Shown here: positions 49,707-64,000 of the stretch, piece by piece | How positions within the stretch are numbered: position 1 is the stretch's first letter | Layout of the letters: each line of letters opens with the position of its first letter | NCBI RefSeq assembly: GCF_016313185.1 | Contig: NZ_CP066218.1 | Span: forward strand, 1,860,001-1,924,000 | Length of the DNA: 64,000 bases | Direction: 5' to 3' | Source of the DNA: Mycolicibacterium baixiangningiae | GTDB lineage: Bacteria > Actinomycetota > Actinomycetes > Mycobacteriales > Mycobacteriaceae | Notes under the pieces: model-generated | What the model was told of the DNA's origin: nothing | Database searches by the model: none | Seen by the model: the letters and a program-made list of their open reading frames with translations, nothing else | Program-made: the position numbers and the translations under genes

Positions 49707-51032
49707 ATGGAAAGTCAGGTTTCCGCGCACGCCGCAGCGCCGACGGCGGCGATCCGCAAGGCGATCGCCGGCGCATCGATCGGCAACGCGGTCGAGTGGT
49801 TCGACTTCGCCATTTACGGATTCCTCGCCACGTTCATCGCCGCCAAGTTCTTCCCGGCGGGCGACGACACCGCCGCGCTGCTGAACACCTTCGCGATTTT
49901 CGCCGCGGCGTTCTTCATGCGGCCCCTCGGTGGTTTCGTCTTCGGTCCGCTCGGCGACCGCATCGGTCGCCAACGGGTCCTGGCCGTGGTGATTCTGCTG
50001 ATGTCGGCGGCCACGCTCGGCATCGGCCTGCTGCCCACCTACGCGAGCATCGGCGTCGCCGCGCCTCTGCTGCTGCTGTTCCTGCGATGCCTGCAGGGGT
50101 TCTCCGCCGGCGGCGAATACGGCGGCGGCGCTGTGTATCTCGCCGAGTACGCGCGCGATCGCCACCGCGGGCTGACGGTCACGTTCATCGCGTGGTCCGG
50201 CGTCGTCGGCTTCCTGCTCGGTTCGGTGACCGTCACTGTCCTACAGGCGCTGCTGCCGGCGGCGGCGATGGACAGCTATGGCTGGCGCATCCCGTTCCTG
50301 ATCGCCGCACCGCTGGGCCTCGTCGGCCTCTACATCCGGTTGCGCCTGGACGACACACCGCAGTTCGCCGCGCTCACCGAGACCGACCGGGTGGCGGCGT
50401 CGCCGCTGCGCGAGGCGGCCACCACCGCGTGGCGGCCGATCCTGCAGGTGATCGGTCTGTTCATCGTGTTCAACGTCGGCTACTACGTGGTGTTCACTTT
50501 CCTGCCGACCTACTTCATCAAGACCCTCGAATTCAGCAAGACGGCGTCGTTCGTCTCCATGTCGCTGGCCAGCCTGGTCGCGCTCGTCCTGATCCTGCCG
50601 CTGGCCGCGCTGTCCGACCACATCGGCAGACGGCCGCTGCTCATCGGTGGTGCGGTGGCCTTCGTGGTGCTGGCCTATCCGCTGTTCCTGCTGCTGAATT
50701 CGGGCTCGCTCGCCGCCGCGATCACCGCGCACTGCGTACTGGCGGCCATCGAGTCGGTGTACGTGTCCACTGCTGTCACCGCAGGCGTCGAGTTGTTCGC
50801 CACCCGCGTGCGCTACAGCGGGTTCTCGATCGGCTACAACGTGTCGGTGGCCGCGTTCGGGGGGACCACGCCGTACGTGGTCACCTGGCTGACCGCGACG
50901 ACGGAGAACAACCTCGCGCCGGCGCTGTACCTCATCGTCGCCGCCGTCGTATCGCTCGTCACGCTGTTGACGTTGCGGGAGTCGGCCGGTCGGCCACTGG
51001 CCGGGATCGCGGCCGCTGACGTGCGACGATGA
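49707..51032 (+). CDS. MHS-family major facilitator (organic acid/osmolyte:proton symporter type)
   Basis: 441 residues, 12 membrane helices. [20 protein letters not shown] at the first helix, [14 protein letters not shown] loop 2-3 motif and [19 protein letters not shown] are hallmarks of the metabolite:H+ symporter (ProP, KgtP, ShiA) family. The substrate cannot be read from sequence. Preceded by the LacI-type operator and followed 4 bp later by the lacI-like gene, so the regulator probably controls it. A close paralog is at 55738-57048. Confidence 0.92.
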
Positions 51033-51036
51033 CCAG

Positions 51037-52026
51037 GTGAGCGGTAGGGGAGCAGCAAGGCCGACCAAGGCCGACGTGGCCCGGTTGGCCAATGTGTCCA
51101 CGGCTACCGTCAGCTACGTCCTCAACAACGTCGAGAGCCAACGCATCTCGCCCCGCACCCGTGACGCGGTGCGCAAGGCCGCCGAAACCCTTGGCTACCG
51201 GCCGAATCTGGCGGCGCGCAACCTCGCCGTCGGTGGCAGCGGGGTCGTGCTCTACATCGTGCCCCGCATGGCGCTGGGCGAACTGCCGATGGAAGTCGGC
51301 AGCAGGCTCACGACCGCGCTCGCGCGCCACGGCATCGTGTTGTCGCTGCAGTTCGAGACCGACGACGACCGCAACGTCGTCGACGCGATCAACGATCTGA
51401 ACCCGGTCGCCGTCACCAGTGTGTTCCCGCTGACCGGTGCGGCGCTGGCGGCCGCCGACGCGGCGGGTATCCCGCAGATCCACGTCGGCAGCGCGCAGTT
51501 GCACGCGCTCGGTGAACTGCATCTGTCGATCGGTGACCTGCGGATCACTCATCTGGTGGACCGGGGCCACCGCCGGCTCGCGTTCGCCTACTCCGACGCC
51601 GACAAGCTGCGGCCGCTGGGGGACTACTGGCTCGACGGGTTGCGGGTGGCCGCCCGTGGGCACGCGCTGCCGGAGCTCGTGGTCGGCACCGTCGCGACCG
51701 ACGGCAGCGACGCCGCGGCGGTCGTGACCGGGTGGGTGCAGCTGGGGGTGACCGCGGTGTGCGCACAGAGCGACGAGACGGCGTTCGTGGTGCTGCATGG
51801 TATCCGGGAAGCAGGTCTGCGGTGCCCGGCCGACCTGGCCGTCATGGGCGTCGACGCACGTCCGCTGGGTGCGGTGAGCGGACCGCCGCTGACCTCGGTG
51901 GGGTTCGATGCGAAGGAGATCGTCGACGTCGCGGTGGCGGCGATGATGACGGAACTGGGCTATCCGGTCGAGCCCGAGCCGAATGCCCGCAAGGTCGCGC
52001 GGCTGGTGCAGCGCGCGTCGACCTGA
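51037..52026 (+). CDS. LacI-family transcriptional regulator
   Basis: 329 residues. The HTH and hinge are KADVARLANVSTATVSYVLNN...RTRDAVRKAAETLGYRPNLAARNL (residues about 9-63); the rest is a periplasmic-binding-protein-like effector domain. GTG start 4 bp after the permease stop. Two matching palindromes flank the permease-regulator pair (49672 and 52064), suggesting it represses both the permease and the P450 operon until an effector binds. Effector unknown. Confidence 0.93.
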   Translation: MSGRGAARPTKADVARLANVSTATVSYVLNNVESQRISPRTRDAVRKAAETLGYRPNLAARNLAVGGSGVVLYIVPRMALGELPMEVGSRLTTALARHGIVLSLQFETDDDRNVVDAINDLNPVAVTSVFPLTGAALAAADAAGIPQIHVGSAQLHALGELHLSIGDLRITHLVDRGHRRLAFAYSDADKLRPLGDYWLDGLRVAARGHALPELVVGTVATDGSDAAAVVTGWVQLGVTAVCAQSDETAFVVLHGIREAGLRCPADLAVMGVDARPLGAVSGPPLTSVGFDAKEIVDVAVAAMMTELGYPVEPEPNARKVARLVQRAST

Positions 52027-52063
52027 GCGTTACATCCAAACGAGAATTTGTTGCTTGCACCCT

Positions 52064-52081
52064 CGCTTACGCGTGTAAGCT
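52064..52081. promoter_or_regulatory. LacI-type operator 2
   Basis: CGCTTACGCGTGTAAGCT, a near match to operator 1, with a perfect inner palindrome GCTTAC-GCGT-GTAAGC. Its right arm is the TAAGCT -10 (52076-52081) of the P450 gene, so bound repressor would block the polymerase. Confidence 0.75.
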
Positions 52082-52109
52082 CCTACCGCGTACAGAGAGG
52101 CGGATTTCC

Positions 52110-53312
52110 GTGACCGTGAGTGCCAGCCCCGACGTCTACTTCGATCCCTACGACGTCGGAATCAATGCCGATCCCTACCCGGTGTTCAGACGCCTCCGCG
52201 ACGAGGCGCCGCTCTACTACAACGAGCAGTACGACTTCTACGCGGTGAGCCGCTACGAGGACGTGTGCAAGACGCTCGTCGACCACGAGACCTTCAGCTC
52301 CGCGCGCGGCGCGATCGTCGAACTCATCAAGGCCAACATCGACATCCCGCCGGGCACGGTGATCTTCGAGGACCCGCCGATCCACGACGTGCACCGCAAA
52401 CTGCTCGCCCGCATGTTCACACCGCGCAAGATCAATGCGCTCGAGCCCAAGATCCGCGAGTTCTGCGCTCAGAGCCTGGACCCGCTGGTGGACGCCGGCC
52501 GTTTCGATTTCATCACCGATTTCGGCGCCCAGATGCCGATGAAGGTGATCAGTTCGCTGCTCGGCATCCCCGAGGACGATCAGGAGATGATCCGCGACTA
52601 CGGCAACGCCCAGTTGCGCACCGAGGCCGGTAAACCGATGTCCGCCGCCGAGCAGGGCATGGTCACCGGCGAGGTGTTCGAGGCCTACATCGACTGGCGT
52701 CAGGACAACCCGTCCGACGACATCATGACCGAACTGCTCAATGTCGAGTTCACCGACGAGACCGGCACCGTGCGGCGATTGCGGCGCGAGGAGCTGCTGG
52801 TCTACCTCAACGTGGTGGCCGGTGCGGGTAACGAGACCACGACACGGCTGATCGGCTGGGCGGCCAAAGTGCTCGCCGAGCACCCCGATCAGCGGCGGGA
52901 GCTGGTCGAGAACCCGGCCCTGATCCCGTTGGCCGTCGAGGAGTTGCTGCGCTTCGAACCGCCCGCCCCCCATGTCGCCAGGTATGTGACCCGCGACATC
53001 GAGATCCACGGCCAGACGGTCCCCGAGGGTGCCGTGATGATGATGCTCATCGGTGCCGCCGTGCGTGACCATCGCCAATTCCCGCCCGACGGCGACGTTT
53101 TCGACATCCATCGGGAACCGCGTCAGCACCTGGCCTTCAGCGTCGGAACGCATTACTGTCTCGGCTCGGCGTTGGCGCGACTGGAGGGACGAGTAGCGCT
53201 GGAGGAGATCCTCAAGCGCTTCCCGGAGTGGGACGTCGATATGGCCAACGCCGCGCTCTCACCGACATCGACTGTGCGGGGCTGGGATTCGATGCCGGCG
53301 ATCGTGCGATGA
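52110..53312 (+). CDS. Cytochrome P450
   Basis: 400 residues. Oxygen-activation helix VVAGAGNETTTRL, ExxR in EELLRFEPP and the heme Cys loop AFSVGTHYCLGSALARLE (Cys about residue 350; the first Gly of the usual FGxG is Ser). Soluble, needs ferredoxin partners, none of which are adjacent. GTG start with GAGAGG 9 nt upstream (52095-52100). Its stop overlaps the next start (ATGA). CYP family not assigned. Confidence 0.93.
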   Translation: MTVSASPDVYFDPYDVGINADPYPVFRRLRDEAPLYYNEQYDFYAVSRYEDVCKTLVDHETFSSARGAIVELIKANIDIPPGTVIFEDPPIHDVHRKLLARMFTPRKINALEPKIREFCAQSLDPLVDAGRFDFITDFGAQMPMKVISSLLGIPEDDQEMIRDYGNAQLRTEAGKPMSAAEQGMVTGEVFEAYIDWRQDNPSDDIMTELLNVEFTDETGTVRRLRREELLVYLNVVAGAGNETTTRLIGWAAKVLAEHPDQRRELVENPALIPLAVEELLRFEPPAPHVARYVTRDIEIHGQTVPEGAVMMMLIGAAVRDHRQFPPDGDVFDIHREPRQHLAFSVGTHYCLGSALARLEGRVALEEILKRFPEWDVDMANAALSPTSTVRGWDSMPAIVR

Positions 53313-54395: not shown

Positions 54396-55685
54396 TCAGC
54401 GTCGCCGCCACGGGCCGGGCAGCAGGCTCACCGACACGGCGGAGATCACCGATACCGCGATGAGGTAGGCGGCGATCGCGTCGCTGGACTTCGTCGCTGC
54501 GTAGAGGGCGGTGGCGATGGTCGGCGCGAACGCCGATCCGACCACCGCCGACAGGGTGTAGCCCAGGGACACACCGCTGTAGCGCACGTCGGCGTCGAAC
54601 GCCAGGCTGAACAGCGAACCTGTCACCCCGGCGGCCGGTGCCATCGCCAACCCGAACACCAGCACCAGGGCGACCAGGAAGAGCCGGGGGTCGCCGGTGT
54701 TGATCAAGGCGAAGACCGGTAGGACCGACGCGCCCATCGCGACGACCCCGGCGAGGAAGACCGGCTTGCGGCCGACGGCGTCGGACACCCTGCCGAACAC
54801 CGGGTACATCACGACCGCCACCACGGCTGCCACGCAGACACCGAGAAGTGCCTGCGCGCGGTCGATTCCGGCCACCGTGGTCGCGTAGGACACCAGGTAT
54901 GCCACACAGATGTAGGCGAACACCCCCTGGGACAGATAGGCCCCGGCGACGAGCAGGATCTGGCGCCAGTGCCTGTTCACGGCCACGGCGACCGGCAGCC
55001 GCACGAGCGCGGCCCGGGCCCGCACGGCGGCGAAGTCGGGGCTCTCGGCCAGAGAGAGCCGGATGACCAACCCGATGACGATCAGCACGGCGCTGGCGAG
55101 GAACGGGATCCGCCAGCCCCACGACAGGAACTGTTCGTCGGGCAAGAGGGATACCGCGTAGAACGCCAGCGTGGCGATCGCGGTGCCGGCCGGGGCGCCC
55201 ATCTGCGGGAAAGCCCCGTACAGGCCTTTACGGTCCGGTGCGGCGTGTTCGACCGCCATCAGGGTGGCGCCGCCCCATTCCCCGCCGACGGCGAAACCCT
55301 GCGCCAACCGCAACAGCGTCAACAGGATCGGCGCCGCCACACCGATCTGCCCGTAGGTGGGCAGCGCTCCCATCAGCACGGTGGCGACACCCATGATCAG
55401 CAGCGAGTAGACCAGCATCCGCTTGCGGCCGATCCGATCGCCGAAGTGGCCGAACATGATTCCGCCCACCGGGCGCGCGACGAATCCGACGCCGAATGTC
55501 GCGAACGACAACAGCAATCCGGTGGCCGCCGACGCTGAAGGGAAGAACAGCTGTGGGAACACCAGCGCCGCCGCGGTGCCGTAGATCAGGAAGTCGTAGT
55601 ACTCGACGGTCGTCCCGATGAAGCTCGCCGACGCGACCCGCAGAGGCGACGTGCCGACACCTGCGGTGGCACTGGTCGCTGCCAT
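54396..55685 (-). CDS. MHS-family major facilitator (distant paralog)
   Basis: 429 residues, 12 membrane helices. IGTTVEYYDFLIYGTAAALVFPQLFFP, FGHFGDRIGRKRML and GFAVGGEWGGATLMAVEHA place it in the metabolite:H+ symporter family, in a different subgroup from the two relatives nearby (VEYYDF rather than VEWFDF). Last gene of the leftward run that starts with the SDR gene; 52 bp from the preceding permease. Substrate unknown. Confidence 0.9.
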   Translation of the reverse strand: MAATSATAGVGTSPLRVASASFIGTTVEYYDFLIYGTAAALVFPQLFFPSASAATGLLLSFATFGVGFVARPVGGIMFGHFGDRIGRKRMLVYSLLIMGVATVLMGALPTYGQIGVAAPILLTLLRLAQGFAVGGEWGGATLMAVEHAAPDRKGLYGAFPQMGAPAGTAIATLAFYAVSLLPDEQFLSWGWRIPFLASAVLIVIGLVIRLSLAESPDFAAVRARAALVRLPVAVAVNRHWRQILLVAGAYLSQGVFAYICVAYLVSYATTVAGIDRAQALLGVCVAAVVAVVMYPVFGRVSDAVGRKPVFLAGVVAMGASVLPVFALINTGDPRLFLVALVLVFGLAMAPAAGVTGSLFSLAFDADVRYSGVSLGYTLSAVVGSAFAPTIATALYAATKSSDAIAAYLIAVSVISAVSVSLLPGPWRRR

Positions 55686-55737: not shown

Positions 55738-57048
55738 TCAGACCCGCATGCGCAGCGGCTGATTGGCGGTCTCGCGCATGGTCATGATGGTGGCCAGCGA
55801 GATGACGGCCGCGATGATCACGTAGTAGGCGGGGGCGAGCGGGTTCCCGGTGCGGTCGGCGAGCCAGGTCGCGACATACGGTGCGGTACCGCCGAACAGC
55901 GCCACCGACGTGTTGTATCCGATCGAGTAGCCGCTGGAACGCACCTTGGTGGCGAAGAGCTCCGCGCCCGCGGCCAGCGACCCCGCGACGAACACCGCTT
56001 CGAGCGCGGACAACCCCGCGTGCCCGGCGATCGCGCCCAGCAGTGATCCGGTGTTGAACAGTGCGAACAGCGGATAGGCCAGCACGGCGAAACCCACGGC
56101 GCCGGCGATCAACAACGGTTTGCGGCCGACGCGGTCCGAGAGCGCACCGAGGGGCAGGATGAGCACCAGTCCGACGGCGCTGGCCACGGTGATCGAGACG
56201 AACGCATCGGTTTTGGTGAACTCGAGCGTCTCGGTCATATAGCTCGGCAGGTAGGTGAACACGATGTAGAAGCCAACGTTGTGGATGATGACGAGGCCGG
56301 CGATCTGCAGGATCGGCCGCCAGGAGGTCGTGACCGCATCCTTGAGCGGCGACGTGGACACCTCACCGGATTCCTTGAGCTCTTCGAAATCCGGTGTGTC
56401 GCCGAGCTTCAGCCGGATGTAGAGGCCGACGCCGCCCAGCACACCGGCGATGAGGAACGGGATCCGCCACCCGTATGCGTTCATCGCTGATTCGCTGAGC
56501 AGCGCCTCGAGCACCGTTACCGTCACCGACCCGAGCAGGAACCCGACGACCACCGACCAGACCAGGAAACTGACCACGAATCCGCGGTGGCGGTCGGGGG
56601 CGAACTCGGCGAGATAGCAGGCACCGCTGCCGTATTCACCTCCGGCGGAAAAGCCCTGCACACAGCGCAGGACGAGCAGAAGCAGTGGCGCGGCGACGCC
56701 GATGGCGTCGTAACTCGGCAGCAGGCCGATCGCGAAGGTGGACGCCGACATCAGCAGGATGACCAGCGCCAGCACACGCTGGCGGCCGATCCGGTCGCCC
56801 AACGGCCCGAAGAAGAACCCGCCCAGGGGGCGCATGAAGAACGCGGCCGCGAAGATGGCGAAGGTGTTCAGCAGCGCGGCGGTGTCGTCGGCGGTCGGGA
56901 AGAACGTCTTGGCGATGTAGGTGGCCAGAAAGCCGTAGATCGCGAAGTCGAACCATTCGACGGTGTTGCCGATGGCGGCGCCCCGCACCGCCCGCCGCAC
57001 CGCGTGTGGTTCGGCCTCGCGCGGGCGGTGTCCGTCGATGGTGGCCAT
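55738..57048 (-). CDS. MHS-family major facilitator (close paralog of the 49707 permease)
   Basis: 436 residues from the ATG at 57048, which has GAGGAG 6 nt upstream. It repeats most of the 49707-51032 protein ([32 protein letters not shown] compared with [32 protein letters not shown] around helix 1), so the two are recent duplicates. It lies 88 bp downstream of a small hypothetical gene in the SDR-FadD run, so it may import that pathway's substrate. Confidence 0.92.
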
Positions 57049-57136
57049 GGTTGCTCCTCGATCGCGCACGCCGACCCCGGCACTGTTGGGTTCGAGCATT
57101 CCCGATCTTGTGCGGAGCTAATCCCGCGGCGGCGGG

Positions 57137-57439
57137 TCAGTCGCTGGCGGGAAGCGGCTTGGCTTCTTTGAGGTTGAGCGGGGTGGCGCCGATGGACAGG
57201 GTGCCCGCACCGGCCTTGGTGACGAGCACCTCGGCCCCGCTGTCGTCGACGTAGCGTTTGCCCATCACGTTGCCGCCCGACAACGACGGGTCCAGGGTCG
57301 CGTCGGACGCCTTCGCGGCATCCAGTGGCACCATCGGCGTACCGCCGGCGCGCAGGTCGTCGAGGCTCTCGGCGCTGCGCACCACGATCACCTGGGTGTC
57401 GCACACCTGGCTCTGCAGGCGGGTGCCGTTCTTGATCAT
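57137..57439 (-). CDS. Small hypothetical protein linked to FadD
   Basis: 100 residues, no membrane segment or signal. It contains LQSQVCDTQVIVVRS near the start and GAEVLVTKAGAGTLSIG near the end, and is predicted mainly beta. Its ATG overlaps the stop of the acyl-CoA synthetase gene (ATGA), so it is made with that enzyme. I recall similar short proteins beside CoA-pathway genes in actinobacteria, sometimes with a second Cys (CGG) where this one has AGG. Function not known. Confidence 0.75.
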   Translation of the reverse strand: MIKNGTRLQSQVCDTQVIVVRSAESLDDLRAGGTPMVPLDAAKASDATLDPSLSGGNVMGKRYVDDSGAEVLVTKAGAGTLSIGATPLNLKEAKPLPASD

Positions 57440-58950
57440 GCGGGCTCCTTCTCGGGCTCGTCGGCTGCGGCATGGAGTTCTTCGATCAGCTCGCGGCGCA
57501 GCACCTTACCGGTGGCGTTGGTGGGTAGCTCGGCGCGGAACACCACCCGGTCCGGGGTCCGCGAGCCGCGCAGATGCCGGCGCACGTGGGCGCGCAGGTC
57601 GTCGGGATCGGGGTCGGCACCGGTGGCAGGCACCACGACGGCGACGATGATCTGTCCCCACTGCGGGTCCTCGGGACCGACGACGGCGACGTCGCGGACG
57701 TCGGGATGTTCGACGAGCACATCCTCGATCTCGGCGGGTGCGATGTTCTCACCGCCGCGGATGATCGTGTCATCGGAGCGGCCGCCGATGAACAGGTATC
57801 CGTCCTCGTCAAGGGAGGCAACATCTTTGGTCGGGAACCAGCCGTCCGCGTCGAGTACGGAGCCGATGTCGGTGTAGCGGCCGGAGACCTGATCGCCCCG
57901 GACGAACAGCTCGCCGGTCTCCCCGGGGCCGAGCACGCTGCCGTCGTCGGCGCGGATCTGCACCTCGATACCCGGCACGATCTGGCCCACCGAGCCGAGT
58001 CGGCGTATCACCGCGTCGTCTTCGGAGGCGCGTGCGGCGCGGTGGTCGTCGGGCCCGAGCACCGCGATGGTGGAACTGGTCTCGGTGAGGCCGTAGGCGT
58101 TGACGAAGCCGACGTCGGGCAGCAGTTCGAGCGCCCGCCGGACCAGCGGCAGCGCCACCTTCGAACCACCGTAGGCGAGGTTGCGCAAAGTGGGCAGGGC
58201 CACCGGCTCCTCGGACAGCGCGGACACGATGCGGTCCAGCATGGTGGGGACGACGGTGGCGGTGGTGACGCCTTCGGTGCGGACCAGCCGGATCCACTCG
58301 CGGGCGTCGAAGTGGCGCAGGTACACCATCTTCCGGCCGGCATACAGATTCGACATGGCGGCCCCGACACCGGCGATGTGGTAGGGCGGAACGCAGATCA
58401 GCGCAGCGTCCTCGGGCGAGGCAGAGGCGAACTCCACGGTGCCGGTCACGTAACTGGTCAGGTTGTTGTGGGTCAGCTCAACGGCTTTGGGCCGCGACGT
58501 GGTGCCCGAGGTGAACAGCACGACCGCCACCGCGTCGGGGTCGGCGAACTCGGCGGCGGGTTCGGCCGTTCGGGCGGCGGCGAGGAACTCCTGTGCGTCC
58601 AGCACCCGCTTACCCGTCCCGGCGACGACGTCGCGGTACTCCGCGTCGACGATCACCAGCGCGTCGGGGAGTCGCCCGATCAGTTCATGTAGCCCGTCGC
58701 GGCTGAGCCGGTAGTTGAGCGGGGTGAACGGAATGGCCGCCCTGGCGGAGGCGAACAGCAGCAGTGGCAGCAGCGCGCCACCAGTGCCGACGTAGGCGAC
58801 GTGTGCCGCACCCGAATTCGCGATGAGGCCGGCGCCACCGTCGGCGAGCGCGGAGAGTTCGTCGACGGACAGCCGCAGGCCCTCCGAGACGACAGCGGTC
58901 CGGTCGGGGTCGGCCGAGACAGACATCTCCAGCAGCAGGGAGATGCTCAT
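57436..58950 (-). CDS. Acyl-CoA synthetase (FadD-like)
   Basis: 504 residues of the ANL superfamily. AVVLFTSGTTSRPKAVELTH is the P-loop, NAYGLTETSSTI the A5 motif, GWFPTKDVASLDEDGYLFIGGRSDDTIIRGGENI the hinge and A8 region, and NATGKVLRREL carries the catalytic Lys. It activates a carboxylic acid to its CoA ester in the cytoplasm. Start ATG overlaps the SDR stop; the stop overlaps the small protein start. Substrate unknown; small or branched acids are plausible from the linked mutase. Confidence 0.9.
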   Translation of the reverse strand: MSISLLLEMSVSADPDRTAVVSEGLRLSVDELSALADGGAGLIANSGAAHVAYVGTGGALLPLLLFASARAAIPFTPLNYRLSRDGLHELIGRLPDALVIVDAEYRDVVAGTGKRVLDAQEFLAAARTAEPAAEFADPDAVAVVLFTSGTTSRPKAVELTHNNLTSYVTGTVEFASASPEDAALICVPPYHIAGVGAAMSNLYAGRKMVYLRHFDAREWIRLVRTEGVTTATVVPTMLDRIVSALSEEPVALPTLRNLAYGGSKVALPLVRRALELLPDVGFVNAYGLTETSSTIAVLGPDDHRAARASEDDAVIRRLGSVGQIVPGIEVQIRADDGSVLGPGETGELFVRGDQVSGRYTDIGSVLDADGWFPTKDVASLDEDGYLFIGGRSDDTIIRGGENIAPAEIEDVLVEHPDVRDVAVVGPEDPQWGQIIVAVVVPATGADPDPDDLRAHVRRHLRGSRTPDRVVFRAELPTNATGKVLRRELIEELHAAADEPEKEPA

Positions 58951-59834
58951 GTCTTGTCCACTGTCTCGTCCACTGCCTTGTCGACGAAGATGTCGAGGGT
59001 GGGGTGCTCGCCGCCACCGTAGCGGGACAGGTCGTCCACACCGGCCGACGTCAGCACCTCGGAATCGATGAAGCACTGACCTGTGGTCTCGCGGGCCGGC
59101 CGGGTCAGCACTTCGACCGCCGCATCGGCCATGATCTGTGGATCGCGCGACGCCTGGAGCGCCTTGTCGCCGTCCGCCATGTTGGCCACCGCGGAGGTGG
59201 CGATATAGGTCTCGGGCCACAGGCAGTTGAACGCGATGCCGGGGCCGCCCTGCTCTGCGCGGAACTCTTCAGCCCAGCCGAGCGAGAGCAGCGTCATCCC
59301 GTACTTCGACAGCGTGTAGGCGGGGTGGGCGCCCAGCCAGTAGGGGTTCATGTTCAGCGGCGGCGCCAGCGTGAGCACGTGCGGGTTGGGCGACTCCCGC
59401 AGATGCGGCAGGCAGGCCTTGGTCAGCAGGAAGGTGCCCCTGATGTTGATGTCCATCATCAGGTCGAACTTCTTGGCCGACAGCTGCTCGGTCGGGTCGG
59501 TGGCGATGGCGCTGGCGTTGTTGATGCAGATGTCGACACCGCCGAACTGTTCGACGGCGGTGCTGACGGCGCGCGCCACGTCGTCCTCCTTGCGCACGTC
59601 GCCGACGACCGCGACGGCTTTGCCTCCGGCGGCCTCGACCTCGGCGACGGCGGTGTGCACGGTGCCCGGCAGCTTGGGATGCGGCTCGCCGGTCTTGGCG
59701 AGCAATACGACGTTGGCGCCGTGGCGGGCCGCGCCGATGGCGATGGCCAGACCGATTCCACGGCTTCCGCCTGACACCACCAGGGTTCGATCGGTCAGCG
59801 CTCGCTGGCTGGGCACCCCTTGTTCGCTGGGCAT
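58947..59834 (-). CDS. Short-chain dehydrogenase/reductase (HSDL2-like)
   Basis: 295 residues. NAD(P)-binding VVSGGSRGIGLAIAIGA, NNASAIA motif and a YxxxK active site in HPAYTLSKYGM. The substrate-loop and WPETYIATSAV segment resemble the hydroxysteroid dehydrogenase-like 2 group. GAGGAGG lies 4 nt before the ATG. The last residues, DKAVDETVDKT, come from short imperfect DNA repeats at about 58951-58985. First gene of the leftward operon; divergent from the mutase. Confidence 0.9.
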   Translation of the reverse strand: MPSEQGVPSQRALTDRTLVVSGGSRGIGLAIAIGAARHGANVVLLAKTGEPHPKLPGTVHTAVAEVEAAGGKAVAVVGDVRKEDDVARAVSTAVEQFGGVDICINNASAIATDPTEQLSAKKFDLMMDINIRGTFLLTKACLPHLRESPNPHVLTLAPPLNMNPYWLGAHPAYTLSKYGMTLLSLGWAEEFRAEQGGPGIAFNCLWPETYIATSAVANMADGDKALQASRDPQIMADAAVEVLTRPARETTGQCFIDSEVLTSAGVDDLSRYGGGEHPTLDIFVDKAVDETVDKT

Positions 59835-59857
59835 GGGCCTCCTCGACTCAACTCGAT

Positions 59858-59894
59858 GGTATTGCCATTCTCATTTTCTGCAAGTGTCGTATCC
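59858..59894 (-). promoter_or_regulatory. 37-bp regulatory element, copy A, SDR promoter
   Basis: About 30 of 37 bases match copy B at 60008-60044. The shared core is GGTATTG-CATTCTCATT-TGCAAGT. Read on the minus strand it offers TTGCAG (-35), a 16-bp spacer and TACCAT (-10) pointing at the SDR gene. Confidence 0.6.
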
Positions 59895-60007
59895 GGCGAT
59901 TGTGTCGCAGGTACCCGTGCAGGTCGCCGCGGGGGTCCGCAGGCCGGCGCCGGCCCGTGGTGGCACGGGTCGAGGACGCGGGTGAACACGTTCACCTTCC
60001 CGAAGGC

Positions 60008-60044
60008 GGTATTGGCATTCTCATTCTTTGCAAGTACGTTATCC
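60008..60044 (+). promoter_or_regulatory. 37-bp regulatory element, copy B, mutase promoter
   Basis: Contains TTGGCA (-35, 60012-60017), 17-bp spacer and TACGTT (-10, 60035-60040), 8 nt before the mutase ATG, so the transcript is probably leaderless. The CATTCTCATT core between the hexamers is also in copy A and is a likely shared repressor site. Confidence 0.65.
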
Positions 60045-60048
60045 ACTG

Positions 60049-61626
<1,578 letters not shown>

Positions 61627-61642
61627 AAGGGGAGTGTTCTAG

Positions 61643-62041
61643 ATGCCCACTCGTGTCCTTGTCGCCAAACCGGGCCTCGACGGCCATGACCGCGGCGCCA
61701 AGATCGTCGCGCGCACGCTGCGCGACGCCGGTTTCGAGGTCATCTACACCGGGATCCGCCAGCGGATCGAGGACATCGTGTCGATCGCGCTGCAGGAAGA
61801 CGTGGCGGTGGTGGGGCTGTCGATCCTGTCGGGGGCGCATCTGGCGTTGACCCGGCGCACCGTGGAAGCGTTGCGGGCGGCCGACGCCGGTGACATCGCC
61901 GTCGTGGTCGGCGGCACCATTCCGCAGGCCGATGTGCCGAAGCTGCTGGAAGCCGGTGCGGCGGCGGTGTTCCCCACGGGTACGCCGCTGGAGACGCTGG
62001 TCACCGAGGTGCGGAAGCTGACCAGCGAGGCCGCTCAGTGA
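61643..62041 (+). CDS. B12-binding subunit of acyl-CoA mutase
   Basis: 132 residues, a stand-alone cobalamin-binding domain. The base-off/His-on motif DxHxxG is Asp13-Gly-His15-Asp-Arg-Gly18, followed by GLSILSGAH and VVVGGTIPQAD. It pairs with the large subunit 16 bp upstream to form a heterodimeric mutase of the Icm/Hcm arrangement. Adenosylcobalamin would come from the PduO-type enzyme encoded at 3957-4523. A palindromic repeat starts 9 bp after its stop. Confidence 0.93.
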   Translation: MPTRVLVAKPGLDGHDRGAKIVARTLRDAGFEVIYTGIRQRIEDIVSIALQEDVAVVGLSILSGAHLALTRRTVEALRAADAGDIAVVVGGTIPQADVPKLLEAGAAAVFPTGTPLETLVTEVRKLTSEAAQ

Positions 62042-62050
62042 CGGTGTGTC

Positions 62051-62112
62051 CGCCGAACGTGCGCGTACTGCGACTTTTCGGCCGATTTCTCGCACTGACC
62101 GCACGTTCGGCG
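62051..62112. repeat. Palindromic intergenic repeat (REP-like)
   Basis: Perfect 13-bp outer arms (62051-62063 and 62100-62112, CGCCGAACGTGCG), inner TGCGA/TCGCA pairing, and a central TTTTCGGCCGATTT. It fills the gap between two genes and runs straight into the next gene's AAGGAGG. I recall similar elements scattered through mycobacterial genomes. Confidence 0.8.
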
Positions 62113-62125
62113 AAGGAGGGCTGAC

Positions 62126-63082
62126 ATGAGGCTGGGCGTGATGATCGGTGCCGAACGCGGAGACATGGAGCGCAAGGTCACCAAGCTGGTGTCCGACATC
62201 GAGTGGGCCGAGTCGGCGGGTATGGACACCGCGTGGATGCCCCAGGTGCCCAACGACTTCGACTGTCTGACGATGGTGGCGCTGATGGCCGCCCACACCT
62301 CGCGCATCGAACTGGGCACCGCGGTGGTTCCGTTGCAGGCGCAGCATCCGATCGCGCTTGCGCGCCAGGCGCTTTCCGTGCACGCCGTGGCGGGCGGCCG
62401 GCTCGCACTCGGCGTGGGCCCCTCACACCACTGGATCGTGCGGGACATGCTCGGCCTGCCGTATGAGAAGCCCGCTGCCTATACGCGGGACTACCTCGAG
62501 GTGCTCAACGCCGCACTGGCCGGCCCTGGCGACGTCGACGTGGAGAACAATTCCTTCACCGTGCATAGTCCGACCGTGCTGGCGCCCACCACCCCGATGC
62601 CGGTGCTGGTGGCCGCGCTCGGTCCGGTGATGTTGCAGCTCGCCGGTGAACTCGCCGACGGTACCGTGCTGTGGATGGCCGACGAGCGCGCGATCGGTGA
62701 CCACATCGCGCCCAAGATCACCAAGGCGGCGGCGGACACTGGCCGCCCGGCCCCGCGCATCGTCGCGGGAATCCCGGTGTGTCTGTGCGCGAACTCCGAG
62801 ATCGACGCGGCCAAGGAACGGGCCAATCGCATCCTGGCCGAGGCGGAGACCTCGCCCAACTATCAGAAGCTGCTCGACCGCGGCGACGCCCGCAACGTGG
62901 GTGATCTATGTGCGGCGGGCGACATGGAAACGATCCTGCGTCGATTCCGAGACTTCGCCGATGCCGGTGTCACCGATCTCTCGGTGCGGCTGTTGCCGAT
63001 CGGCGACAACCGCGACGAGTTGATCGCGTCGAAGTACCGCACCCGTGAGGTGATCGCCGAGCTGGCCAAGCAGGTGCGATGA
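62126..63082 (+). CDS. LLM-class F420-dependent oxidoreductase (MSMEG_4879 type)
   Basis: 318 residues with the luciferase-like barrel: MRLGVMIGAERG start, RIELGTAVVPLQAQHPIALARQALSVHAVAGGRLALGVG core. It resembles the F420-dependent LLM family named after MSMEG_4879 (assignment from memory). AAGGAGG lies 7 nt upstream. In this operon it may oxidise or reduce a CoA-ester or alcohol intermediate; the substrate is unknown. Its TGA stop lies inside a MIRU-like repeat. Confidence 0.88.
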   Translation: MRLGVMIGAERGDMERKVTKLVSDIEWAESAGMDTAWMPQVPNDFDCLTMVALMAAHTSRIELGTAVVPLQAQHPIALARQALSVHAVAGGRLALGVGPSHHWIVRDMLGLPYEKPAAYTRDYLEVLNAALAGPGDVDVENNSFTVHSPTVLAPTTPMPVLVAALGPVMLQLAGELADGTVLWMADERAIGDHIAPKITKAAADTGRPAPRIVAGIPVCLCANSEIDAAKERANRILAEAETSPNYQKLLDRGDARNVGDLCAAGDMETILRRFRDFADAGVTDLSVRLLPIGDNRDELIASKYRTREVIAELAKQVR

Positions 63083-63100
63083 GCGCCTGCGCGAAGAGCC
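63078..63100 (+). repeat. Single MIRU-like unit at gene end
   Basis: GATGAGCGCCTGCGCGAAGA plus GCC, 20 of 22 bases identical to the minus-strand units at 3899-3962. As there, the TGA within GATGAGC is the stop of the upstream gene, and a GTGA-type start of the next gene follows at 63111. Confidence 0.65.
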
Positions 63101-63110
63101 GAGGGCCGCG

Positions 63111-64000
63111 GTGACCGGCCCGCTGGCCGGGATCCGGATCCTGGAGGTCGGCGTGATGCTGGCCGGCCCGTACGCGACGATGATGCTCGCCGACCTGGGC
63201 GCGGAGGTGACCAAGGTCGAGCCGCCCGGCGGGGAGATCTCCCGGCAGGTCAGCGAGAGCTACTTCGCCAGCCTCAATCGCAACAAGCGCAGCGTCTGTC
63301 TGGATCTGCAGTCCGAACATGGCCAGCGGAGGCTGGGTGAACTGGTCGCGGAATCCCATGCGCTGCTGGTGAACATGAAGCCGTCGGTCATCCGCCGGCT
63401 CGGCCTCACCTACGAGGCGCTGCGGCGCCACAACGAGAAGATCGTCTGCGTGGCGATGACGGGTTTCGGGTTGGACGGCGGAGACGACCCAGCGTTCGAC
63501 TATGTGATCCAGGCGGCCACCGGCGTCGCGGCGATGACCGGCGATCCCGACGGTCCACCGACGCTCCCCGGATACTCGTCGGCCGACAACTCGACGGGGC
63601 TGACCGCCGCACTCGGTCTGCTGGCGATGATCGTCGCGGGCCGGGGCGGGCAGGTCGACGTCTCGCTGCGCGATGTGATGCTCTCTCAGCTGAACTACCG
63701 GGCGGCGGCGTACCTGAACGACGGGGTGGCGCCGCGTCGCTATCCCAACGGCGCGCACTCGTTCTACGTTCCCGCGCAACTGTTTCCGACTGCCGACGGC
63801 TACCTGGCGCTGTTCGTCACCCATGACGGTTTCTGGCGGCTGTTCGCCGATGAGGCAGGCATCGAGGGCTTTTCGACGATGGCCGAGCGGGCCGCACGGC
63901 GCGAGGAGGTCCTCGCGGTCGTCACCGCGGCGCTCGCCCGGGACTCCGCGAAGGGGTGGGAGGCGCGGCTGCGGACGCTCGGCATCCCGGCAGCCGCGGT
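63111..64000 (+). CDS. CaiB/BaiF family III CoA-transferase, partial
   Basis: 296 residues are visible before the window ends; full family members are about 370-400. GTG start, MTGPLAGIRILEVGVMLAGPYATMMLADLGAEVTKVEPP is the typical N-terminus, and the catalytic Asp that carries CoA is in YSSADNSTGLTAALG (about residue 160). It moves CoA from one acyl-CoA to another acid. It is 28 bp from the LLM gene and in the same direction as the mutase, so it probably belongs to that pathway, perhaps activating the substrate or releasing the product. Confidence 0.93.
   Translation, partial: MTGPLAGIRILEVGVMLAGPYATMMLADLGAEVTKVEPPGGEISRQVSESYFASLNRNKRSVCLDLQSEHGQRRLGELVAESHALLVNMKPSVIRRLGLTYEALRRHNEKIVCVAMTGFGLDGGDDPAFDYVIQAATGVAAMTGDPDGPPTLPGYSSADNSTGLTAALGLLAMIVAGRGGQVDVSLRDVMLSQLNYRAAAYLNDGVAPRRYPNGAHSFYVPAQLFPTADGYLALFVTHDGFWRLFADEAGIEGFSTMAERAARREEVLAVVTAALARDSAKGWEARLRTLGIPAAA

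Follow-up and report, generated by a model that had tools for sequence, protein, structure and literature searches.

What does a mycobacterium do with a second coenzyme B12-dependent acyl-CoA mutase? The question is raised by a locus at the end of a 64,000-nucleotide stretch ('the window', genome positions 1860001-1924000) of the one-contig, 6.18-Mb genome of Mycolicibacterium baixiangningiae (NZ_CP066218.1). A first-pass annotation, placing it at window positions 57137..64000, saw two divergent operons there: an acyl-CoA synthetase, a short-chain dehydrogenase (SDR), a small coupled protein and two MHS permeases on one side and, on the other, a two-subunit adenosylcobalamin (AdoCbl)-dependent mutase (here MutL and MutS), an LLM-class oxidoreductase and a CaiB/BaiF CoA-transferase. 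It envisaged one pathway from uptake to oxidation, for a substrate that could not be named. Gene calls and family profiles find every named gene, and the locus extends past the positions given. The observation was right and the pathway drawn from it partly right. The substrate still has no name, but the residues of MutL narrow it to what is probably a carboxylated acyl-CoA of greater bulk than methylmalonyl-CoA. Of the new points three are strongest: a pocket signature, a crotonase partner encoded in trans and a promoter motif common to the mutase and crotonase genes.

MutL and MutS have what the AdoCbl mutase family should have, an MM_CoA_mutase domain in the one and a B12-binding domain in the other, with DGHDRG in MutS conforming to DxHxxG, the cobalamin-ligand motif of B12-binding small subunits. 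Is the enzyme then an ordinary methylmalonyl-CoA mutase (MCM)? Of the seven pocket residues expected of MCM proper (Tyr89, Arg207, Tyr243, His244, His328, Gln330 and Asn366, numbered as in 1req) it keeps three, Tyr89, Arg207 and His244; Thr195 and Gln197 are also kept, and MutL otherwise has Ala243, Gly328, Val330, Ala334 and Ala366. The changes from MCM in its clade are Tyr243 to Ala, His328 to Gly, Gln330 to Val and Asn366 to Ala or Cys, at four positions which presumably line the active site and which are uniform in all MCM rows compared and altered in every orthologue row. Among 145 distinct aligned rows (some genomes and four proteobacterial proteins give two each) Ala243/Gly328/Val330 marks all 113 orthologue rows but none of the 32 others, which include the genome's own non-catalytic MutA. 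In a tree of 40 rows, 16 with the signature picked for spread and 24 others (near-copies, duplicates and MutA omitted), the signature rows form a single group with support 100/100 on a stem of 0.77 changes per column. The clade spans Actinobacteria and proteobacterial plasmids, whose members are 56.5-59.1% identical to MutL.

Arg207 of 1req is presumably Arg-228 of human MMUT. According to PMC10356863, Arg-228 is salt-bridged to the substrate analogue malonyl-CoA. Retention of the carboxylate-binding Tyr89/Arg207 and of His244, together with change at 243, 328, 330 and 366, implies a bulkier carboxylated substrate; MutL, by its residues, would still grip a carboxylate while having space for a larger acyl group than that of methylmalonyl-CoA. 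A second ordinary MCM, clearing propionyl-CoA from the neighbouring catabolic region, would agree with the MCM-like Tyr89 and Arg207, with the TIGR00641 score above cut-off and with the MeaB gene in the cluster. However, canonical MutA/MutB are already present at 2.594-2.598 Mb, and the pocket residues and the separate, long-stemmed clade led us to reject MCM identity for MutL and to regard such a role as unlikely. The earlier supposition of a two-subunit mutase other than ordinary MCM is thus supported.

Might it instead be a hydroxyacyl- or simple acyl-CoA mutase, of the 2-hydroxyisobutyryl-CoA mutase (HCM) or isobutyryl-CoA mutase (ICM) type, for a branched monocarboxylic acid, as the branched acids of the first-pass annotation would imply? 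The two subunits are in keeping with this, as is the nearness of an acyl-CoA ligase gene, which the Methylibium HCM operon also shows, and the best-scoring solved structure for MutL is 4r3u, the large subunit of HCM. Yet where HcmA has Ile89, Asp116 and Gln207, MutL has Tyr, Ala and Arg, and the clades differ; ICM has Phe89 and Gln207 equivalents, and the six rows from the phylum with Phe/Gln belong to another clade. Both identities were rejected, and we hold this explanation to be very improbable. Mutases with the HCM residues Ile89 and Gln207 do occur, separately, in two mycobacterial genomes (L152:7099, minus strand, in G042; L155:8014, plus strand, in G083), where they group with HcmA and not MutL. 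About 8 kb from the first lies an odd mutase (L152:14974, minus strand) with Val89, Gln207 and Asn for His244.

How widely is the arrangement kept? A genome collection yielded 415 relatives of MutL, of which the best 80 were taken as loci, a gene being counted as present at ≥55% identity over ≥40% of the protein. As no locus extends more than 10 kb beyond its match, distant genes are undercounted. MutL is in 80, MutS in 79, the LLM gene in 78 and the CaiB gene in 76; all four are together in 76 of the 80, and the other four loci end early. On the divergent side SDR1 is in 59 and the ligase ACS1 and the 100-aa protein are each in 53, with the SDR1/ACS1 pair alongside the four-gene core in 49, so that the co-occurrence of the divergent operons, on which the first-pass annotation staked its case, is borne out by this neighbourhood survey. 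Downstream come ferredoxin in 67, a second ligase (ACS2) in 65, two acyl-CoA dehydrogenases (ACAD1 and ACAD2) in 62 each, a crotonase-family protein (ECH) in 61, SDR3 in 50, SDR2 in 41, MeaB in 38, thiolase in 15, a KstD-like gene in three and MhpA, MhpB and MhpC in none. Such constancy of gene order goes far beyond what chance would give. Of the first reading, CoA loading and a pathway conserved across genomes are supported; the permeases, as part of that pathway, are not, MHS1 being in 22 loci (some matches being a different permease) and MHS2 in 15.

MutL orthologues are in 65 of 88 genomes of the genus, the own included (one, with E-value 8.4e-245, is partial), and in none of 60 same-order genomes of other families, where the best E-value is 5.6e-164 as against 0 for orthologues. 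Wider draws gave 61 of 301 genomes and 9 of 31 genera in the family; 39 of 298 in the order, one of them (G577) outside the family; and, in the phylum, 12 of 396 with MutL at ≥83% identity, 111 passing the E-value cut and the remainder being at ≤55%. Among those 12 is an 83% orthologue in a 9.2-Mb genome of another order, probably Streptomyces (G646). The mutase genes are also found in Nocardia (L040) and Rhodococcus (L066, L092). In Mycolicibacter (e.g. L051) the core is alone, adjoining yrbE, thiolase-like and ChsH2-like genes; an ACAD2 orthologue (77-84% identity) lies elsewhere in the genome in 11 of 11 genomes tested, six of them Mycolicibacter. One mutase orthologue (G077:C1:1049589-1051193) is listed with an in-frame TAA. 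A search of open-licence literature by narrow word combinations found no description of the cluster.

The proteobacterial members of the clade sit in a mini-operon. Seven records of the collection searched carry such a mutase at the cut used, and in all four plasmid records looked at (Paraburkholderia, Sulfitobacter, Marinobacter and Diaphorobacter) the order is crotonase-MutL-MutS-CaiB-MeaB. An IclR-family gene precedes in three, and transporter genes of the dicarboxylate-type TRAP or tripartite-tricarboxylate kinds adjoin or, in Marinobacter, lie several kb off. Over the aligned part, identity to the mycobacterial proteins is 48-55% for CaiB and 43-47% for the MeaB-like protein, that of Sulfitobacter matching Pfam MeaB. 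These are the enzyme kinds of the Escherichia coli scpA-argK-scpB-scpC operon, which suggests a succinate-type acid in and a decarboxylated acyl-CoA out. The Diaphorobacter plasmid also carries a second, very divergent mutase large subunit (L103:1187-2869) with Leu89/Asn207 and no carboxylate grip, adjoining genes for its own small subunit, MeaB, an AMP-binding protein and ABC transporters of the branched-chain type.

Where, then, is the mycobacterial crotonase? With the Sulfitobacter protein as query the own genome gave 43 matches, the best, at 2060164-2060880, being 45% identical over 168 residues. The distance to MutL is about 139 kb, and to the window end 136 kb. Across the 88 genomes of the genus both genes are present in 65 and neither in 22, with the mutase never alone and the crotonase alone once (G026). 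In those 65 the two are never within 30 kb: they are 67-185 kb apart in 31, over 250 kb in five (one of which, G065, may wrap around a circular chromosome) and on different contigs in 29. In three other actinobacterial loci the crotonase is near MutL: L142 (72.7% identity, 1.3 kb), L136 (79.4% over 175 aa, 5.3 kb) and L137 (71.3%, 6.8 kb). The first catalytic Glu is kept and the second is Gln in 13 of 13 (nine actinobacterial, four proteobacterial), so the partner lacks the pair of glutamates of an enoyl-CoA hydratase, and these Gln-type crotonases may act as decarboxylases, of a substituted malonyl-CoA if the mutase runs from succinyl to malonyl. The loss of the second Glu is the only likeness to decarboxylating over hydrating members. 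Could the flux be the reverse, substituted malonyl-CoA becoming substituted succinyl-CoA, with CaiB handing the CoA to an incoming acid? MCM-type equilibria lie on the succinyl side and CaiB adjoins the mutase in both phyla, but this would leave no role for a conserved, co-regulated crotonase and seems to us quite unlikely.

Co-regulation is indicated by the motif. The first-pass annotation had pointed to shared promoter elements and they are there, as two direct copies of GGTATTGNCATTCTC in the SDR1/MutL gap; the only other copy in 225 kb of own sequence stands before the crotonase. A related site lies 5' of MutL, on the same strand, in all 73 other loci checked, the exact 15-mer in 71 (seven of the 80 were left out as short or differently placed), while among random 280-bp pieces from the same loci 20 of 704 contain its core, CATTCTC. 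The motif precedes the crotonase in six of six mycobacterial crotonase loci, the own included, and also in L142 and L171, and is absent from the own MCM locus. Ten further MutL loci have it in seven instances, L142 and L144 seeming to be repeats of L092 and L040. A related palindrome, GAGAATNNNATTCTC, has four perfect and four one-mismatch sites in the 225 kb (means of 0 and 0.25 in 12 shuffles), all between 1.924 and 2.063 Mb; at two mismatches there are eight against 2.4 expected. The operator-like sequence is repeated over about 140 kb (genome 1924491-2065355), the first site being 491 bases past the window end. A TetR-type gene at 1964672 (minus strand) adjoins a perfect site and, in G022, has a 79% relative no more than 7 kb away from MutL; its product is a candidate regulator of these predicted operators.

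The palindrome runs over a tract of which the mutase cluster is the opening. Behind CaiB come a 2Fe-2S ferredoxin gene (minus strand), ACS2, ACAD1, ACAD2, ECH, SDR2 and SDR3 (minus strand), thiolase and MeaB, which escaped the earlier reading because the window ends; MeaB is followed by genes for a glycosyltransferase-like protein, a KstD-like dehydrogenase and an IclR regulator, and then by three Mhp-like genes, of MhpC, MhpA and MhpB type in that order. The glycosyltransferase and MhpC names were given by eye; the MhpA- and MhpB-like proteins score above NCBIfam equivalog cut-offs. The region, of about 145 kb, goes on to about 2.066 Mb and includes an mce operon with yrbE genes, two KstD-like dehydrogenases and numerous P450-, acyl-CoA dehydrogenase-, ligase-, amidohydrolase- and Rieske-like genes named by eye; it probably dismantles a ring-containing compound. 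A search as narrow as that for the cluster found no open-licence paper assigning it a substrate. In G022 much of it is matched in order, with the mutase core retained but displaced by more than 3 Mb. The mce operon of the catabolic region, with its yrbE genes, is seen in L162:1-2398 and L169, and in Mycolicibacter two yrbE genes are directly 5' of the mutase core. Among the 88 congeners ACAD2 and the mutase are both present in 65 and both missing in 19, ACAD2 being alone in four and the mutase in none. KstD-like and MhpA genes, intended as negative controls, are in 64 and 65 of the 65 mutase-positive genomes (plus G023, G030 and G064, and for MhpA also G008), and it was through this co-occurrence that the larger region was recognised.

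In the 3-(3-hydroxyphenyl)propionate pathway succinate is set free by MhpC; were the propionate chain substituted, the product would be a substituted succinate, which is the predicted type of substrate for CaiB and the mutase. Most likely such an acid would come from MhpA/MhpB/MhpC-like ring cleavage in the same co-inherited region. The CaiB-type transferase would load CoA onto it, MutL/MutS, maintained by MeaB, would rearrange the substituted succinyl-CoA to a substituted malonyl-CoA, the Gln-type crotonase, encoded elsewhere under the same motif, would decarboxylate this, and the acyl-CoA would enter beta-oxidation via the neighbouring two-gene acyl-CoA dehydrogenase, SDRs and thiolase. That the locus is the back end of such a catabolic pathway we put at about an even chance. 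The fuller claim, of an aerobic actinobacterial route, its mini-operon common to Proteobacteria, passing ring-cleavage succinates of a large hydrophobic molecule through a new opened-pocket B12 mutase clade and a Gln-type decarboxylase governed by one motif, has to our mind somewhat less than an even chance.

Several points weigh against the proposed pathway. All the enzyme activities, and with them reaction, direction, crotonase role and substrate origin, are predictions from sequence, pocket enlargement being read off residues without a structure; succinate release by MhpC is general background and the MhpC-like gene was named by eye. The scheme leaves the LLM gene, a member of the core, without a step, and gives no role to SDR1, ACS1 and the 100-aa protein. 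The motif is missing 5' of MutL in L136, L137 and L139 and before the crotonase in the first two, and is absent from the proteobacterial loci examined; at three mismatches GAGAATNNNATTCTC shows no enrichment (39 sites against an expected 29). Shared ancestry and block-wise keeping or loss of the region confound the co-occurrences, which are not independent: ACAD2, KstD-like and MhpA genes track the mutase almost equally well, and the control gene intended from outside the region, matched in one of 148 genomes (the own), is strain-specific and little informative.

Features of the locus, in window coordinates
Feature	Position	Strand	Remarks
Two MHS permeases	54396-55685 and 55738-57099	-	3' of the 100-aa protein gene
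100-aa conserved protein	57137..57439	-	ATGA-coupled to ACS1; 53/80 loci
ACS1, AMP-forming acyl-CoA ligase	57436..58950	-	Pfam AMP-binding; ATGA-coupled to SDR1; 53/80 loci
SDR1, short-chain dehydrogenase	58947..59834	-	NCBIfam NF006133 above cut-off; 59/80 loci
Promoter motif copy 1, GGTATTGNCATTCTC	59858..59872	+	SDR1/MutL gap
Promoter motif copy 2, GGTATTGNCATTCTC	60008..60022	+	just 5' of MutL; direct repeat of copy 1
MutL, AdoCbl-dependent acyl-CoA mutase large subunit	60049..61626	+	PF01642 full length; TIGR00641 above cut-off
MutS, B12-binding small subunit	61643..62041	+	PF02310; TIGR00640 above cut-off
LLM-class F420-dependent oxidoreductase, TIGR03564 type	62126..63082	+	358.9 bits, cut-off 234.25
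CaiB/BaiF family III CoA-transferase	63111..64151 (cut at window end, 64000)	+	Pfam/NCBIfam

In its details the first-pass annotation was partly right about coupling: ATGA overlaps join SDR1 to ACS1 (58947-58950) and ACS1 to the 100-aa protein gene (57436-57439), but the mutase side has none, with 16 bases between MutL and MutS and the ATGA ending the LLM gene out of frame with CaiB. The two MHS permease genes are real, and lie outside the coordinates then given. TTG at 60028, in the list of open reading frames, is a less likely start for MutL because the repeated element ends just before it. The 100-aa protein matches no family in Pfam or NCBIfam; Protein Data Bank searches with the LLM protein and thiolase gave no clue to substrate, nor did NCBIfam for the ligases and SDRs. 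At 49707-53312 lies one more MHS permease, the third, with a P450 and a regulator of LacI type; close relatives partly retain this set next to the locus.

Few B12 mutases have a known specificity, and every one of them marks out a metabolic capability. With its rebuilt pocket conserved, a decarboxylase predicted as partner and a promoter motif in common, the clade offers an enzyme pair open to direct test, and a handle on the purpose of a catabolic region present in many environmental mycobacteria. Indoleacetate breakdown uses a succinate-to-malonate rearrangement, as does anaerobic alkane breakdown; the route proposed here, if true, would be the aerobic counterpart.

The indoleacetate (Iaa) pathway of Aromatoleum aromaticum is the closest precedent, likened by described reactions and not by sequence. 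According to PMC8360864, IaaL is a phenylsuccinyl-CoA transferase, the B12 mutase IaaGH takes phenylsuccinyl-CoA to benzylmalonyl-CoA and IaaF is a decarboxylating benzylmalonyl-CoA dehydrogenase: as proposed here, a CoA-transferase acts on a substituted succinate and decarboxylation follows rearrangement, but IaaF is of the acyl-CoA dehydrogenase family, where here a crotonase is proposed. By analogy, the mycobacterial ACAD pair could itself be an IaaF-like decarboxylating step. The HCM-type mutase that serves isobutylene breakdown in Mycolicibacterium ELW1 (PMC13188929) is a different one. HcmA/HcmB share with MutL/MutS the two-subunit architecture and nearby MeaB and ligase genes, but not pocket or clade. 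MCM itself (MutB; 1req, human MMUT) shares fold family and Tyr89/Arg207/His244, and differs from MutL at 243, 328, 330 and 366, in subunit make-up and in clade. The E. coli Scp operon has the same set, mutase, MeaB-type GTPase, crotonase-family decarboxylase and CoA-transferase, but ScpA is an MCM in pocket as in name and has a single chain, and ScpB, which shares only 23% identity with the own crotonase over 192 aa, has Pro and not Gln in place of the second Glu.

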